Shown in pieces: positions 1,864-9,764 of a stretch of DNA of 64,000 nt. Every line of letters begins with the position of its first letter. Positions within the stretch are counted from its first letter, which is position 1. The notes beneath the pieces were generated by a model, which was given only the letters and a program-made list of their open reading frames with translations, ran no database searches and had not been told where the DNA came from. Made by a program: the position numbers and the translations under genes. Source of the stretch: Granulosicoccus antarcticus IMCC3135 (GTDB lineage: Bacteria; Pseudomonadota; Gammaproteobacteria; Granulosicoccales; Granulosicoccaceae); contig NZ_CP018632.1 of assembly GCF_002215215.1 (NCBI RefSeq), positions 6,382,501 through 6,446,500 on the forward strand, given 5' to 3'.

Positions 1864-2157
1864 GAGGCAATCAAGTATTCAAATTAGTGAAAACTAAAAA
1901 ATGAGGCTCACATTCAGCTTATCGACCTGCCATCGCATCGAATGTCATAGCTTGTGAGCTGTATCCCATAGTGCCAGTGTTACCCAGCCGATGCAGGGGT
2001 TCTCGTGTCCAAAGACACATCTTTCGACAGCGAGGTTTCAGTCCATCTGGTACTTTACGCAGCTATCGACTCCACGGGATGTGTCATCACACACCTTATG
2101 AAACGAACTCTTTATTCAGGGCAGAACCTGCCCCTTCCAACACGAGCTGACAAGCTC

Positions 2158-3942
2158 ATGTCTGGCCGCTGGCTGATCGGCGCTCTGCTGAGCGTGATTC
2201 TGGTGCTAAATGGCTGCAGTGACGGCGGTGTTGTCATCGACAATGCAGATTCAGGCAGCAACCCGGGCAGTAGCTCAGGTGGCAGCTCGGGCAGCGGTAA
2301 TGGTGACGGTACGCCCACCGGCGGTGACCTGTCAGAACCTGATGGTGGCGGACCGACTGGTGAATTGCCACCCGTGACCAGCGTCTCCAACCTGGATCCG
2401 GATGACGTTGAGGCCTCACGCCTGCTCGCACAGGCCACCTTTGGCGCCACCCTGGCGGATATCGCCACTGTAAAAGAATCAGGCTTTGAGGAGTGGATTG
2501 ACGAGCAGATAAGCCTGCCGGTTTCTCTGACAGAGCCCTACACACGGGCAAACAGCAACGGCAGCAGCGGCGCGGAACGTCATGAAGTCTGGTGGAACAA
2601 TGTTTTAGAGCAACCTGACCAGCTACGCCAGCGAGTCGCCTTCGCATTGAGCGAAATATTCGTGGTCTCCGACCTGGACTATCTGCTGGCCAACAATCAG
2701 TGGGGCATGGCCAGTTATTACGACATGCTCAGCCGCAACGCATTCGGCAATTATCGTGACTTGCTCGAAGATGTGACCCTGCATCCGGTGATGGGTGTAT
2801 TTCTGAGCATGGTCCGTAATGAAAAAGCCAACGTGGAGGAGAACATTCGTCCTGATGAGAACTACGCACGCGAAGTGTTGCAATTGTTCTCAATCGGTCT
2901 CTACGAACTGAATAACCGCGGAGAAGCTCTGCCACTGGCCAGTCCGGTACCCGCCTATTCGCAGGATCAGGTAGAGGAATTTGCGCGCGTTTTCACGGGC
3001 TGGAATTACGATCTGGTGACTTCCTGGGAGACTATAAACCTGGGCGGTGGCGATACCTTTACGACCCCCATGGTCCCTGACGAACGATTTCACGACACGG
3101 GCAGCAAAAATTTGCTTAACGGTGCCGTTGCACCCGCAGGGCTCAACGTACGCGAGGACATGGCCTTCGCACTCGATAACATTTTCCAGCACGCGAATGT
3201 GGGTGTACTGATCTCCAAACAATTGATCCAGCGTCTGGTCACCAGCAATCCCACACCTGACTATGTAGAGCGTGTCGTCACTGTCTTCAACGACAACGGC
3301 GCCGGAGAGCGAGGCGATCTGGCCGCTGTCGTCAAGGCCATCTTGCTGGACGATGAAGCCCGCAATGGCTATCTGGACAATCCTGATTTCGGCAAACTGC
3401 GTGAACCGGTCGTGCGACTGGCCCATCTCTGGCGTGCACTCGATGGCACCCCCGGCCCATTAGCCGATGACGTACACAACACACCTGATTTCACACTGAA
3501 CCGCGTTGATGAAATGACCGGTCAGGAAGTCATGCAAGCACCTTCAGTCTTCAATTTTTTCGATCCGGACCACCCGGTCGTACCCTCGGGCACCACGCTA
3601 TCGCCCGAACTGCAAATCATGACTGAAGCCAATCTGGCGGCCACCCACAACAACTATCACCATCAGGTATACCGCTTCAATGACCGCTCGGATCTGAGTG
3701 ATGACAACCCGCGTGTGACCGTTATCAATCTGCAGCCTCTGGTCGATCTGGCAGCGGATCCGGACAAACTGCTCGACTGGTACAACCTGGTTCTGTTCGG
3801 TGGTTCGATGCCTGACACCATGCGCCAGACCCTGTTCGATTACATCGGCAACCTGGGCTCCGATGATGCAGGTCGCTTCGCCGCCGTTCAGGACTCATTG
3901 TTCATGCTACTGGTCGCACCTCAATACCACCTACAGCGCTAG
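2158..3942 (+). CDS. DUF1800 domain-containing lipoprotein
   Basis: A 594-residue protein with a lipoprotein signal peptide (short basic n-region, hydrophobic stretch, lipobox LNGC about 20 residues from the chosen ATG). A Gly/Ser-rich linker of about 60 residues follows, then a DUF1800 domain. Typical segments are LLAQATFGATLADI, RQRVAFALSEIF, YAREVLQLFSIGLYEL and VFTGWNYD. The molecular function of DUF1800 is unknown; members are exported and usually paired with DUF1501 proteins, as here. The frame stays open upstream to a GTG at 2005 and an ATG at 2098; 2158 was chosen because it puts the lipobox at a normal distance. No start has a clear Shine-Dalgarno sequence. The DUF1501 gene follows after 77 bp, probably in the same transcript. 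Confidence 0.82.
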   Translation: MSGRWLIGALLSVILVLNGCSDGGVVIDNADSGSNPGSSSGGSSGSGNGDGTPTGGDLSEPDGGGPTGELPPVTSVSNLDPDDVEASRLLAQATFGATLADIATVKESGFEEWIDEQISLPVSLTEPYTRANSNGSSGAERHEVWWNNVLEQPDQLRQRVAFALSEIFVVSDLDYLLANNQWGMASYYDMLSRNAFGNYRDLLEDVTLHPVMGVFLSMVRNEKANVEENIRPDENYAREVLQLFSIGLYELNNRGEALPLASPVPAYSQDQVEEFARVFTGWNYDLVTSWETINLGGGDTFTTPMVPDERFHDTGSKNLLNGAVAPAGLNVREDMAFALDNIFQHANVGVLISKQLIQRLVTSNPTPDYVERVVTVFNDNGAGERGDLAAVVKAILLDDEARNGYLDNPDFGKLREPVVRLAHLWRALDGTPGPLADDVHNTPDFTLNRVDEMTGQEVMQAPSVFNFFDPDHPVVPSGTTLSPELQIMTEANLAATHNNYHHQVYRFNDRSDLSDDNPRVTVINLQPLVDLAADPDKLLDWYNLVLFGGSMPDTMRQTLFDYIGNLGSDDAGRFAAVQDSLFMLLVAPQYHLQR

Positions 3943-4019: not shown

Positions 4020-5426
4020 ATGCGTAATCCGATCGATAAAGAAAAACGCCGATTGCTGAAAACTCTGGCAGCTCTGCCACTGGGTGCGGGTGTATCCATG
4101 ATGGCGGGCAACGGCCGGGCCAATGCGGCAACTTGTGATGATGCCAGGTCACTCGTCTGCATTTTTCTCGCAGGTGGTGCTGACTCCTTCAATATGTTCG
4201 TGCCCGGTGGCAGTAGCTACACCGACTACCGCAACTCACGCAACGAACTGTCAGTCGCAGAGTCAGATTTGCTGACAGTCAGTGATGCGCAACAGGGGGA
4301 GTTCGGCTTCAACGCAATGTTGCCCAACCTTGAACGCTTGTATAGCGATAATCGACTCGCAGTACTGAGTAATACCGGCACACTGATTCAACCCACTACC
4401 AAGGACGACTACCTGGGAACCGTGGCCTTGCCACAATCGCTGTTTGCACATAACACGCAGCAGAAACTGTGGCAGACAGGCGCTGGTATCGTCAATGGCA
4501 GCAATGCCTTTGGCTGGGGTGGTGCAATCAGCACTCATGCGGCCAACTGCAATGGCAACATCGCCGTCGCACCGGCCTTCTCCATGAGCGGCAGCACCGA
4601 CTGGCTGGCTTCGGCCGATACCAACTACGTCACCCTCAACGCCGATGTCGCTGTACAACGAATGTTTGGTTACGACAACATCAGTGACTGGATTCCACCA
4701 GCCAGACTCAGCAATGTTGGTCGCACGCTCAACGAGCTGGTGGCACAGGGCCAGGACAGCGGCAACCCACTGATCATGCGCGCCATTGCCAATGCCGTGG
4801 GACGAGCCTCGGATGCAACCGCATCATTGTATACAGCCCTGGAAGCCAACCCTTTGCCACAGATGCAGTACAACGGCAGTAACAAGCTTGCCAAGCAGTT
4901 GCACCTGGTAGCAAGGCTGATTGCCTCACGTGAGGAGCTGGGGATGCAGAAACAGGTATTTTTCGTGATGATGGGCGGCTGGGATACCCATTCTGATCAG
5001 GTAGAGCGCATGCCGGATCTGCTGGAGGGTCTGAACGAGGCGATTGGCAGCTTTCAGGACACCATCGATGGCATCAATATGGCCAACAGTGTCACCTCCT
5101 TTACCGCCTCGGATTTTGGACGCACCCTGACCAGTAACGGCAATGGTACAGACCATGGCTGGGGTGGTCACAGCTTCGTCTTCGGTGGTGCCGTGGACGG
5201 TGGCCGCGTCATTGGTGATACACCTGACTATTCTGCCAGCAACAATCCTGACGATGCCGGTGAGGATGATGGCAGTTTTGCCGGTCGTCTGATTCCGAAA
5301 ATTTCTGTCAATCAATACGCCGCCACCCTGTCACGCTGGATGGGAGTATCGGAAGCCGAGTTGAGCGAGGCCCTGCCCGATCTTCAAAACTTCGCAGAAA
5401 CAGATCTGGGCTTCATGCAAAGCTGA
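4020..5426 (+). CDS. DUF1501 domain-containing exported protein
   Basis: A 468-residue DUF1501 protein. The N-terminus carries a twin-arginine-like signal (KRRLLKTLAALPLG, ending at about ANAA, residue 38), suggesting Tat export of a folded protein. The domain shows the usual LVCIFLAGGADSFNMFVP start, a GGWDTH motif near residue 320 and TSNGNGTDHGWGGHSFVFGG near residue 375. These His/Asp-rich motifs resemble the metal-binding parts of the alkaline phosphatase/sulfatase-like fold to which the family has been compared. Its substrate is unknown. It follows the DUF1800 lipoprotein, and the two families are commonly adjacent in Gram-negative bacteria, so a joint envelope role is inferred. Family assignment is firm; function is not. 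Confidence 0.85.
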   Translation: MRNPIDKEKRRLLKTLAALPLGAGVSMMAGNGRANAATCDDARSLVCIFLAGGADSFNMFVPGGSSYTDYRNSRNELSVAESDLLTVSDAQQGEFGFNAMLPNLERLYSDNRLAVLSNTGTLIQPTTKDDYLGTVALPQSLFAHNTQQKLWQTGAGIVNGSNAFGWGGAISTHAANCNGNIAVAPAFSMSGSTDWLASADTNYVTLNADVAVQRMFGYDNISDWIPPARLSNVGRTLNELVAQGQDSGNPLIMRAIANAVGRASDATASLYTALEANPLPQMQYNGSNKLAKQLHLVARLIASREELGMQKQVFFVMMGGWDTHSDQVERMPDLLEGLNEAIGSFQDTIDGINMANSVTSFTASDFGRTLTSNGNGTDHGWGGHSFVFGGAVDGGRVIGDTPDYSASNNPDDAGEDDGSFAGRLIPKISVNQYAATLSRWMGVSEAELSEALPDLQNFAETDLGFMQS

Positions 5427-6584: not shown

Positions 6585-7982
6585 TTACAGTTTGATGTTG
6601 AGACGTTCAAGCAGCTCAAGCGTGATTCCACCACGATCAATGCCTTCTGCTGTCTGGTATTGCTCCATCGCCTTGAGAGTGCCCTGGCCTACGATGCCAT
6701 CCGCAGGGCCTGGATCATAACCTTCAGTCTTCAGTGCACTTTGCAGTGAGCTTATGATCTCTTCCGTCATATTGACTTTACACAGAACCTGTTTCCACTC
6801 GACCTGTGCCGGAGCGATTTGAACCTGCCGACTGATCGACTTGGTTTTCTCAGGCATCGAGATGCGACGTTCCGTCGCCGGTGTTGCCAATCGTTGTACC
6901 GCGATGGTCTCGGATACTGCCGGGATCTCCGATATCACGCTCTTGGCCGGCTCGCTGACCACTTCGCGATCCACAGTAACAAACTCTGCAGGGCGTTCAG
7001 TCAGGCAGATTTCACGACCGGTAGCAATCGCACTCTTGTCAGCATCTTCGCCCTTGGCCAACCAGAAAAACCGGGCTTCGGCCGACAACACCTGTTTTGT
7101 GATCGTCGTATATTCAGCTGGAATGTCCACCATCTTCTCGGCGGCAGGGCTGACCAGGCGTTGCACCTGAACCGTCTGGTATTCAGCAGGAACGTTAACG
7201 GTTTGGGTGGTTGCAGGTTTTACCAGCACTGTCTTTGTCAGCTCCTCATAACGTGCAGGAACCTCAACCAGACATAACACGTCGCCGGTGGCATTCGCTA
7301 CCTGCTCAATGACACCACAATCCTCTTTCCAGACACTGCGGGCAGGCTCCACCATTACAGATTCGGTCTCTGCTTTGAAGATCGCCGGTACATCAACGAT
7401 GACGCTGGAGGCCTCCTTGATCAACACCTGCTCTTCATCCGTTTCAAACACAGCAGGCTCAATCTCAATAACTTGAGTGGCCTCCTTGATCAGCACTTGC
7501 TCGGACTCGGCTGTGTACTGCGCCGGCGTGACATACTCGACAAAGCAACTATCAGGCTCGACCGCATCGGTATCAATGCCCGACGCTGCAAGTTGTGCAA
7601 TCGCTTCGGGGTTGATCGGCAAACTGTTGCCACCCACCTGCGTGGTCCAGCTCAGCGTGGCCGCGCGCACCTGCAGCTGCTCGACTTCTCTGGCGAAGAC
7701 TGTTGGCGTCACCGTGATCTGTTGTGACGCTTCCTTGACGACTACGCTCTGATTAACAGCTTCAAAGCTTGCAGCATCTGTCTCGATACGCTCAGCAGCC
7801 TCCTGAACGACCAGATCTTCACTGCTCGTTTCAAAGCGTGCCGGCGTAATGACCTTGGCATAGCATTCACCCGGCTTGGCATCAGGCAGAGTAAGACTGT
7901 TGTCGAATTGTTGAGCCGTTGCAGGCAGAGCCACAAAACAACTACCCAATACGCCCAACAGGGACAATGTCAATTTACGCAC
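6585..7982 (-). CDS. Periplasmic repeat protein with C-terminal peptidoglycan-binding domain
   Basis: A 465-residue exported protein. The GTG at 7982 gives a clean signal peptide (MRKLTLSLLGVLG, cleavage after ATAQ) and has a GAGGT site 9 bases upstream; the frame extends to 8060 but that part is not signal-like. The mature protein has twelve repeats of about 24 residues (pattern PAxFETxxExVLVKEAxxxI). They fall into four blocks of three, each opening with Cys and closing with Trp: Cys40-Trp112, Cys146-Trp218, Cys237-Trp307 and Cys326-Trp396. A PG_binding_1 domain (about residues 405-463, GYDPGPADGIVGQGTLKAM) ends the protein, so it probably anchors to the cell wall. Repeats of this type occur in uncharacterised proteobacterial peptidoglycan-binding proteins. 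No enzymatic motif is visible. Confidence 0.7.
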   Translation of the reverse strand: MRKLTLSLLGVLGSCFVALPATAQQFDNSLTLPDAKPGECYAKVITPARFETSSEDLVVQEAAERIETDAASFEAVNQSVVVKEASQQITVTPTVFAREVEQLQVRAATLSWTTQVGGNSLPINPEAIAQLAASGIDTDAVEPDSCFVEYVTPAQYTAESEQVLIKEATQVIEIEPAVFETDEEQVLIKEASSVIVDVPAIFKAETESVMVEPARSVWKEDCGVIEQVANATGDVLCLVEVPARYEELTKTVLVKPATTQTVNVPAEYQTVQVQRLVSPAAEKMVDIPAEYTTITKQVLSAEARFFWLAKGEDADKSAIATGREICLTERPAEFVTVDREVVSEPAKSVISEIPAVSETIAVQRLATPATERRISMPEKTKSISRQVQIAPAQVEWKQVLCKVNMTEEIISSLQSALKTEGYDPGPADGIVGQGTLKAMEQYQTAEGIDRGGITLELLERLNIKL

Positions 7983-8102: not shown

Positions 8103-9764
8103 CTATTTCGCAACAATCGCCCCTGAAATTCTCCGACGTCGATTGACACCGACGATTGCCAGCACCGCCAATAACCATGTTAACGCACCACCACCGTTAC
8201 CGCCGGTAACGACTTCTGTAGGCTCTGTAGGCTCCACCGGGGTAGTCGGGTCAGTGGGCTCTGTCGGATTCGTCGGTTCAACCGGCTCAGTAGGCTCGAC
8301 AGACTGAGGTGTCAATGGCTCAGGATCCTCGGAGTCGTTCAGGCCATCATCGTCCGTGTCTGATTTCAGCGGATCAGTTCCAGCGATGATCTCTTCACTA
8401 TCACTGAGTCCATCCGAATCAGAATCGGCCACATTGATGTCCGTACCTCGCTCCACCTCGTCAGCATCAGCCAGGCCATCGTCGTCCGAATCGCGCTTCA
8501 GTGGGTCAGATTCCCATATCAAGACCTCAGCACCGTCCCCCAGACCATCCTCATCCGTGTCCACAATCACCGGGCTGGTGCCATGGGTATTTATTTCCTC
8601 ACCATCACTCAGGCCGTCATCATCGGAGTCCACCTGATTCGGATCGCTGCCGGCATCCACTTCATCACCGTCGTTAGCCCCATCCCCGTCGCTATCAGGG
8701 TCCAGAGGATCGGTATTGTAGATTGAGGTCTCAGCAACATCGATCAGGCCATCACCGTCCGAATCCGTGTCCGTGCCCAGCTCGAGCATTTCATGTGAAT
8801 CCATCTCACCACCACCGCCAGTCACATTGCTGCCAGCGACCAGATGCCACTGCGAACCAATAACAGCACCACCACCACTGTGTCGCCCGGTATTGAGCGA
8901 CTTGAGACTGCGCCAACTGTCTGCTGTCACATCGTAGGCTTCGGTGGTACTCAGCGCCTCACTGCTGGTGTTGATCTCGCCACCCGCTACCAGCACCTCG
9001 TTGCCGGCAGCGGCGGCCAGGGCGCCGGCTCGCACCGTGGGTATGTCTTTTCCAACGCTCCAGGTATTGGTCGAAAAGTTGTAAATATCCGTCGCCTTTA
9101 CAGCGTTCGTGAAGGGGTTGGGTTGCTCGGTGGTTCTACCAGCTGCCGCCACCAGCCGACCATCGACAACAACCGCTGCGAAATGATCTCGCGCATGCGG
9201 TGCGTTTGGCAGAATGTCCCAATCCTTGCTGACCGGATCATAGCGATCAAACCAGTTCACAGCTCCCCCGGCATGCCCCTTGGTATTGCCGCCCAGCACA
9301 TAGATTTCCCCATCGAAAACCACGGCGGCAGCAGAACCCCGGACACGCCCCGAGGGCATTGTGCCGTCCGTTGACCATGTCTCAGTAACGGTATCGAACA
9401 CATATATAGTCGAAACACTGGGCTCATCCGGATAGCAGCAGGTGAAGGCGGCGAGTGCATATATCTTCGAACCGATGGCGACGGGCTGAAAATGGTGCAA
9501 CTCCATTGGCGGATCGCCAATAACCCGCCACCGATTGCTTACCGGGTCATACACTTCCACCGGTCGAGCCGAGCGCCCCCCCAACAGGTAGTAAAGCCCG
9601 TCCACCACCACAGCGGCCGCCTCGTGTCGATCGACGGCCGTACTGTCATCACTGGTCGTGACAATTTGCCAGGGGGTATCGGCACTGGTGGCTGCCAGCC
9701 CCTCCGCACAATGCAAAGACGAAGCAAGCAGTAGCCACAATGGCATGAGACGGAACAGGGGCAT
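8103..9764 (-). CDS. Kelch-repeat / TSP3 calcium-repeat surface protein with GlyGly-CTERM tail
   Basis: A 553-residue exported protein. Residues 1-25 form a signal peptide (MPLFRLMPLWLLLASS). Residues 30-330 hold about six kelch blades, for example EVYDPVSNRWRV and IYVFDTVTETWSTDGTMPSGR, forming a beta-propeller. About seven acidic thrombospondin-type-3 repeats follow (DSDGDGLIDVAE, DSDDDGLSDGEE, DTDEDGLGDGAE and similar), expected to bind calcium. A Pro/Thr/Glu linker leads to a C-terminal Gly-Gly motif, a hydrophobic segment and a basic cluster (GGGALTWLLAVLAIVGVNRR), the GlyGly-CTERM architecture. Known GlyGly-CTERM proteins leave via type II secretion and are processed by rhombosortase; neither is encoded here. 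It is probably surface-exposed or released. The ligand is unknown. Confidence 0.82.
   Translation of the reverse strand: MPLFRLMPLWLLLASSLHCAEGLAATSADTPWQIVTTSDDSTAVDRHEAAAVVVDGLYYLLGGRSARPVEVYDPVSNRWRVIGDPPMELHHFQPVAIGSKIYALAAFTCCYPDEPSVSTIYVFDTVTETWSTDGTMPSGRVRGSAAAVVFDGEIYVLGGNTKGHAGGAVNWFDRYDPVSKDWDILPNAPHARDHFAAVVVDGRLVAAAGRTTEQPNPFTNAVKATDIYNFSTNTWSVGKDIPTVRAGALAAAAGNEVLVAGGEINTSSEALSTTEAYDVTADSWRSLKSLNTGRHSGGGAVIGSQWHLVAGSNVTGGGGEMDSHEMLELGTDTDSDGDGLIDVAETSIYNTDPLDPDSDGDGANDGDEVDAGSDPNQVDSDDDGLSDGEEINTHGTSPVIVDTDEDGLGDGAEVLIWESDPLKRDSDDDGLADADEVERGTDINVADSDSDGLSDSEEIIAGTDPLKSDTDDDGLNDSEDPEPLTPQSVEPTEPVEPTNPTEPTDPTTPVEPTEPTEVVTGGNGGGALTWLLAVLAIVGVNRRRRISGAIVAK

Follow-up and report, generated by a model that had tools for sequence, protein, structure and literature searches.

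The question raised by this locus is what kind of object is built by a chain of repeats with regularly placed cysteines and tryptophans in front of a wall-binding domain. The window, i.e. the whole stretch of 64,000 nucleotides of the Granulosicoccus antarcticus IMCC3135 genome (7.78 Mb, single contig) that was analyzed, contains on its minus strand a gene (6585..7982; the features of the gene given below lie on the same strand) that starts with GTG and encodes 465 amino acids. As judged from the sequence, residues 1-23 (7914..7982) represent a Sec signal peptide, which is probably cleaved after ATA. Cys15 is missing in several orthologues (by eye), i.e. a lipobox is not conserved, and an AxA-type site is retained. 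Four blocks of three repeats each follow, running from a cysteine to a tryptophan: block 1 (C40-W112, 7647..7865), block 2 (C146-W218, 7329..7547), block 3 (C237-W307, 7062..7274), and block 4 (C326-W396, 6795..7007). They are connected by residues 113-145 (7548..7646), residues 219-236 (7275..7328), and residues 308-325 (7008..7061), respectively. A short segment that contains C401 (residues 397-404, 6771..6794) leads to the C-terminal peptidoglycan-binding domain (PGBD; residues 408-449, 6636..6761). The conserved head of the window protein is LPDAKPGECYAKV.

Residue positions and the Pfam search thus verified the arrangement given in a preliminary description of the locus, i.e. twelve repeats in four Cys...Trp blocks of three, followed by a PG_binding_1 domain, and the Cys-to-Trp spacings are 72, 72, 70, and 70, as had been claimed. 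The repeat itself is real, but its period is 23 residues and not about 24: self-identity within residues 24-401 was maximal at lag 23 (0.186), while the best lag over 2000 shuffles did not exceed 0.152. The distance from the proline to the tryptophan is 65 in all four blocks, and therefore the difference between 72 and 70 merely reflects the placement of the cysteine in the first strand. The cysteine lies seven residues before the proline in blocks 1 and 2 (type A head, C x6 P) and five residues before it in blocks 3 and 4 (type B head, C x4 P), which in both cases is the same side of the strand. The two halves also differ in charge, as blocks 1 and 2 are acidic and blocks 3 and 4 are basic (mean charges from block 1 to block 4 of -3.6, -1.9, +3.5, and +7.2 in 91 proteins). 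Tryptophans are found exactly at positions 112, 218, 307, and 396, and cysteines at positions 15, 40, 146, 222, 237, 326, and 401. Two of the cysteines had been overlooked, C222, which follows Trp218, and C401, five residues after Trp396; C401, unlike C222, is invariant among 18 aligned orthologues.

The C-terminal domain belongs to PG_binding_1 (PF01471). It scored 27.7 bits at residues 408-449, with a Pfam gathering cut-off of 23, and its modelled structure matched SltB3 (5ao8) in the VIA comparison with a Z of 10.6 over 61 aligned residues and an rmsd of 1.4. The earlier reading of a wall-binding C-terminus in a protein of unknown function was therefore upheld. By Pfam score and structure this domain resembles the PGBDs of SltB3 and SleB; these proteins are enzymes, whereas in the window protein the PGBD comes after a repeat region that stays below every Pfam and NCBIfam cut-off. 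Sub-threshold NCBIfam matches to HxsA (33.9 bits, cut-off 121.65) and NF004786 (25.3 bits, cut-off 329) span part of block 4 together with the PGBD, and a sub-threshold Pfam match in or near the repeats was to DUF4901 (14.6 bits, cut-off 27). Two PHROGs without an assigned function gave weak matches in the repeats of relatives: phrog_15777 matched the giant L050 described below (E 2.7e-7, with a best stretch of 16 residues), and phrog_21091 matched L047 (E 0.0017). A profile of the block found no sequence of a solved structure at E values up to 1. The OmpA/Pal domain PF00691 was absent among the Pfam matches at E values up to 1; Bacteroidota presumably possess relatives of the repeat protein with an OmpA domain. 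Among the papers listed in a literature search that took in few subscription journals, none appeared to deal with the repeat family or its architecture.

The genome of G. antarcticus encodes one copy of the family and contains five other PG_binding_1 matches. The family was found in 35 of 36 genomes of the organism's own family group (own genome included), in 41 of 321 sampled genomes of its class (own included, E up to 1e-12), and in 15 of 299 genomes of its phylum (centre genome included, 1e-15), where at least one match (G156) spans the wall-binding domain only. A second class of the phylum, probably the Alphaproteobacteria, had matches in 11 of 337 genomes (centre included, 1e-12), and the phylum of a Campylobacterales bin in 5 of 200 (centre included, 1e-15). 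A scan of named genomes yielded 117 relatives, the best 80 of which include Thiotrichales, Chromatiales, Campylobacterales, Desulfobulbaceae, and a Nitrospirae bin, the nearest being Granulosicoccus bins. A phage search for the family gave no match, and a plasmid search gave two records with 22% and 11% query coverage. Two apparent duplicate family members, each with an in-frame TGA, were noticed on contig 1 of genome G1025 (869523-870701 and 1088621-1089799).

The block ends are conserved, as the preliminary description had supposed. The spacings 72, 72, 70, and 70, together with five residues from the last tryptophan to the last cysteine, were exact in 78 of the 80 named loci, which come from several phyla; L090 and L094 lack the block-1 tryptophan at the expected place. 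Two peptide patterns, which include the first cysteine and the second tryptophan, were used to retrieve these 80 loci, so that the conservation of these two residues was partly selected for; the whole-genome searches used no such patterns. The linkers from a tryptophan to the next cysteine comprise 33-36, 15-19, and 17-20 positions in the 78 loci. Among 98 distinct proteins with four blocks of three repeats, all have the five cysteines (each within one residue) and 93 have the four tryptophans. C222 is a local addition: one extra cysteine in the region between blocks 2 and 3 occurs in 12 of the 98 proteins, and two occur in nine. Conservation is uneven along the chain. In 72 aligned proteins its mean was 0.75 for the linker between blocks 2 and 3 (residues 219-241), the best-conserved linker, versus 0.48 and 0.40 for the linkers between blocks 1 and 2 and between blocks 3 and 4; the base of the hairpin proposed below is also well conserved (0.91 and 0.78).

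Neighboring genes were compared by eye in the 80 loci, which are cut at differing lengths. Of these loci, 24 contain a YdjM-like gene and 18 a kelch-like one. As these neighbors are common only to close relatives and other lineages have different ones, the context yields no function, and a functional assignment from the operon was dropped. In the window, the gene directly upstream on the same strand (8103-9764, -) encodes Kelch and bacterial TSP3 repeats and ends with a stretch resembling a sorting signal (GG, a hydrophobic segment, RRRR), and a DUF1800/DUF1501 gene pair is located at 2005-3942 and 4020-5426 on the plus strand.

Structure prediction was performed once for the whole mature protein and once for a single block. 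The model of the mature protein, which was based on 72 sequences, contains seven strands per block, with lengths alternating between about 7 and 12 residues. Its mean pLDDT was 79.6 and its pTM 0.42, with pLDDT values of about 80-90 inside the blocks and low values in the linkers; the model was read for strand content and confidence only. In contrast, block 2 alone, modelled from 142 block sequences, reached a pLDDT of 74 and a pTM of only 0.16, and the output contained no secondary structure. An empty DSSP output means either that hydrogen-bonded strands are absent or that DSSP failed, and the low pTM is therefore the firmer fact. A poor single-block model is what we would expect if the strands of a block need partners from another block. 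Foldseek gave zero PDB matches for the block model. For the whole model, the 50 best of 341 PDB matches include true PGBD matches, and the repeat part was matched to long-stemmed beta-hairpin proteins and to others with probabilities of at most 0.25. The VIA comparison covered essentially the PGBD alone, i.e. the repeat part was barely tested by it, and we claim no new fold from this comparison. The best BFVD match, a PA14 protein from a phage (E 7e-6, probability 0.77), was discarded as unusable (TM 0.12, rmsd 38).

Covariation was used to analyze which blocks pair. APC-corrected mutual information was summed along each antidiagonal or diagonal between blocks in 98 four-block cores (Neff about 66), and all other lines, 1158 in total, served as a control that preserves relatedness. 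The antiparallel line with a column sum of 79 between blocks 2 and 3 ranked first of 1158 in nine of nine settings of alphabet and sequence weighting, and in one separate run as well. The equivalent line between blocks 1 and 4 ranked third with the 20-letter alphabet (robust Z 4.4-5.7 in three settings); with reduced alphabets the best line within sums of 77-81 ranked between 4 and 30 (Z 1.9-3.2), and in the separate run the line was outside the top 14. A sum of 79 is the register at which the PA/EA breaks of the paired blocks coincide. Competing lines exist: the parallel line -11 between blocks 1 and 4 scored 4.07 versus 4.10 for the antiparallel line at 79, and the parallel lines -46 between blocks 2 and 3 (Z 3.7) and 0 between blocks 1 and 2 (Z 3.9) also rose without an explanation. 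For the 68 sequences distant from the window protein, the 2-3 line at 79 took rank 1 (Z 6.3) and the 1-4 line at 79 rank 4 (Z 4.0), whereas for the 30 near sequences (Neff 20) 1-4 at 76 and 79 led (3.7 and 3.3) and the antiparallel 2-3 line was outside the top six. Charge complementarity peaked at 80 for blocks 2 and 3, and for blocks 1 and 4 the register 79 was merely the fifth best of this pair. Swapping halves between proteins (30 times) removed the signal, a control that destroys relatedness too. Two-block relatives gave an independent peak close to the register predicted for them: in 41 proteins with four repeats per block (Neff about 35), antiparallel sums of 99-102 ranked first in nine of nine settings, sums of 101-102 led with the 20-letter alphabet (Z 5.2-5.9), the register predicted from the breaks is 102, and charge complementarity peaked at 103. 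Together, these covariation results support a side-by-side, antiparallel placement of blocks 2 and 3 in the register in which the breaks match; for blocks 1 and 4 they suggest the same placement and register less firmly.

Arms lying side by side would naturally be equally long, and the repeat numbers of the relatives agree with this. Repeats were counted with a tool that had been trained on four-block proteins and favors a spacing of 23. The 98 four-block proteins count as 3,3,3,3 (L270-L272 also have four blocks and are outside this set), and 60 two-block proteins fell into the classes 4/4 (49), 3/3 (5), 2/2 (3), 6/6 (2), and 10/6 (one, L144). The arms were thus equal in 59 of 60 proteins, versus a mean of 40.7 and a maximum of 49 in 100,000 shuffles of arm lengths; however, these proteins are relatives and 49 of them are 4/4, so that the informative cases are few and related. 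Clustering below 50% identity left 17 representatives, 16 of which have equal arms (proteins fetched later, including the 6/6 pair, are outside this set). The variation in arm length that was seen is variation between species. Excluded from the 60 were L263, a second record of protein L223, the unrelated chance match L055, truncated or incomplete frames (L050/L273, L216, L220, L258, and the second frame in both L178 and L179), and the irregular proteins L256, L260, L261, and L219 (three recognized chains, shortened block 1); the 3/3 protein L175, which has no head cysteines, was included here and omitted from the cysteine counts. Irregular repeat numbers, which had been named as a test of the block model, therefore do occur among homologues, but the arms change together and the cysteine heads are mostly retained: with a tolerance of one residue, all 98 four-block proteins and 38 of the 41 4/4 proteins have C x6 P heads on first-half blocks and C x4 P heads on second-half blocks.

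Several relatives deviate from the standard form. The longest is L050 (L050:2-4897 / L273, G029 contig 220), whose open frame extends over at least 1632 residues and encodes 3+51 repeats in the second arm, a PGBD, and a glycine-rich tail; its first arm is cut by the start of the contig, and a search for a further piece of the gene found none. L144 comprises two frames of very basic repeat proteins, 10/6 and 4/4, that end at the last cysteine and leave no room for a PGBD. L219 has an unrelated N-terminal part with a likely membrane segment, and its block 1 is reduced to one recognizable repeat. The two 6/6 proteins, L255 and L257, have in common an unusual Cys-Asp-Cys stretch, located in repeat 2 of the descending arm, and possess an additional region at the N-terminus.

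In the hairpin register, C40 is opposite V399 and C401 opposite G38, which leaves a distance of two positions between C40 and C401 at the base; the middle joint contains both C146 and C326, and C237 is at the tip. W112, W218, W307, and W396 are opposite L327, L238, E149, and K43, respectively, i.e. each tryptophan closes an arm facing the head of the partner block. The first and the last cysteine occur together in all 98 four-block and all 41 4/4 proteins. Only four complete proteins (L140, L141, L145, and L185) lack the last cysteine, and these are exactly the ones with an extra cysteine just before the first; L142 and L143 do have it, nine residues past the last tryptophan and thus outside the scoring window. 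The tip cysteine alone is lost in L134, L136, and L137. The block-linking disulfides that had been suggested are accordingly probable, and the conserved cysteines would best be connected as C40-C401 and C146-C326, while the tip cysteine may be free or engaged between molecules.

We propose that the repeat region is a single, nested, giant antiparallel beta-hairpin that is stapled at its base by C40-C401 beside the wall-binding domain and works as a stiff spacer or boom, and we put the probability of this reading at about 0.6. Blocks 1 and 2 would be the proximal and distal parts of the ascending arm, the conserved tip loop would reverse the chain, and blocks 3 and 4 would form the distal and proximal parts of the descending arm. 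Block 2 would thus pair with block 3 and block 1 probably with block 4, with their two-residue PA/EA breaks facing each other. The linkers between blocks 1 and 2 and between blocks 3 and 4 would be joints, C146-C326 could staple the hairpin there, and the segment with C401 would be the base next to the PGBD. As long solitary two-stranded ribbons are seldom stable, a second layer beside the hairpin may be needed.

Three other arrangements of the repeats were considered. The modular view of the preliminary description, in which each block is an independent domain such as a short beta-solenoid and the protein resembles four beads on a string, is quite improbable. The clean Cys/Trp block ends and the lower-confidence linkers between confident blocks would suit it, but the isolated block was modelled poorly and without a PDB match, with the reservation about DSSP given above, covariation runs between blocks 2 and 3 and between blocks 1 and 4, and independent domains give no reason for the equal-arm rule. 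On the basis of the single-block model and the covariation lines, the block is not supported as a domain. A solenoid is also disfavored, as the block model reported no strands, DSSP failure being possible, and the within-block lines were not leading (the best scored 3.2 versus 4.9 for blocks 2 and 3); no solenoid is among the Foldseek and VIA matches listed for the repeat part, which alone proves nothing. Pairing of adjacent blocks, 1 with 2 and 3 with 4, into two separate hairpins or a four-stranded meander is hardly to be expected. The antiparallel 3-4 line at 79 did reach a Z of up to 2.4 in some settings, and those at 77 and 74 reached 2.6 in the 30 near sequences; however, the best lines within 77-81 ranked 18-353 for blocks 3 and 4 and 34-168 for blocks 1 and 2 of 1158, versus rank 1 for blocks 2 and 3, and the two acidic blocks would face each other, as would the two basic ones. 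Distinctly unlikely, in our estimation, is a pairing between molecules, where arms of separate chains would associate into an antiparallel homodimer or a larger assembly, perhaps with the chains cross-linked by tip or odd cysteines. Covariation is blind to the difference between intra- and intermolecular contacts, the conserved cysteines are odd in number (five with four blocks and three with two), this odd set is found without an extra tip cysteine in 77 of 98 and 35 of 41 proteins, respectively, and the 10/6 arms of L144 cannot fully pair inside one chain. The short, conserved 18-residue linker between blocks 2 and 3 and the co-occurrence of the first and last cysteines nevertheless fit a single-chain hairpin more simply.

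As for the role of the single-chain hairpin, a wall-bound base and a conserved tip with a rod of set length between them suggest a spacer or boom. The signal peptide would export the protein, the C-terminal domain would attach the base to the cell wall, and the conserved tip would be offered to a putative partner at the end of the hairpin, the repeat number of the arms determining how far the hairpin reaches. A crude lipobox test was positive for 30 of 41 4/4 and 12 of 98 four-block proteins, and such lipobox-bearing relatives would additionally tie the outer membrane to the wall. An extended strand measures about 3.3 Å per residue, so that a 72-residue block would span about 24 nm and a fully extended four-block hairpin about 48 nm. 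For E. coli under hyperosmotic conditions, one study gives values of 9.7-10.8 nm for the distance between outer membrane and wall and of 30-32 nm for that between the two membranes (PMC8824477). Extended lengths exceed this periplasm, and longer members must therefore run parallel to the wall, be bent back at the joint, or extend beyond the periplasm. The last option leads to a different role, i.e. that the repeats are the stalk of a secreted or surface-exposed, adhesin-like fibre with the wall-binding domain as its root instead of a periplasmic spacer. This role is possible though unlikely: fully extended hairpins outgrow the periplasm, 54 repeats in one arm would correspond to hundreds of nanometres, and short basic relatives without a PGBD exist, but a surface-sorting signal was not spotted by eye in the window protein, and the lipoboxes of the 4/4 relatives, crude as the test is, point to an outer-membrane lipoprotein.

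Known systems have some of these properties in common with the proposed hairpin. The nearest working analogues are the Periscope Proteins and the SasG-Aap rods, which, according to two reports, are elongated and project a terminal domain to a distance set by the repeat number (PMC8201768; PMC4458895). Repeat-number-dependent reach would thus be common to both, but their repeats, as described there, are tandem folded domains in line, whereas the repeats described here appear as strand segments paired between the arms of a hairpin, and this paired-arm arrangement is the new element. Periscope Proteins are also marked by a repeat number that varies among strains at a single locus, and the variation seen here is between species. 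Furthermore, those rods are found in Gram-positive bacteria, in contrast to a putative non-covalent anchoring by a PGBD in diderms. Tethers such as Lpp, Pal, and OmpA also combine an extended element with wall attachment, and the distance between the outer membrane and the peptidoglycan is, according to the study cited above, a constrained length (PMC8824477). Unlike them, the window protein has no conserved lipobox, its repeat part is beta in the model and neither a coiled coil nor a barrel, and its PGBD family differs from the PF00691 domain of OmpA and Pal. The computations show the repeat anatomy and its conservation, the antiparallel register between blocks, the equality of the arms, and the PGBD family membership, and they support the giant repeat hairpin as a structure; its exact fold, the disulfides, the attachment to the cell wall in vivo, and the role as a wall-anchored spacer or boom are inferred from them.

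Tentatively, the proposal can be extended to the whole family: mirror-matched repeats on both arms of a giant wall-anchored hairpin would change in step, with 2, 3, 4, 6, 3+3, and possibly some 54 repeats per arm. In diderm envelopes, a single gene could thereby place a conserved tip at a distance of tens to hundreds of nanometres. If this is true, a length code is written twice in one chain, and a repeat that is added in one arm must be matched in the other. The family would then be a natural series of molecular spacers of differing length in the bacterial envelope, where length matters, and it would be one without a name in the searched libraries, yet present in 41 of the 321 sampled genomes of the window's class.
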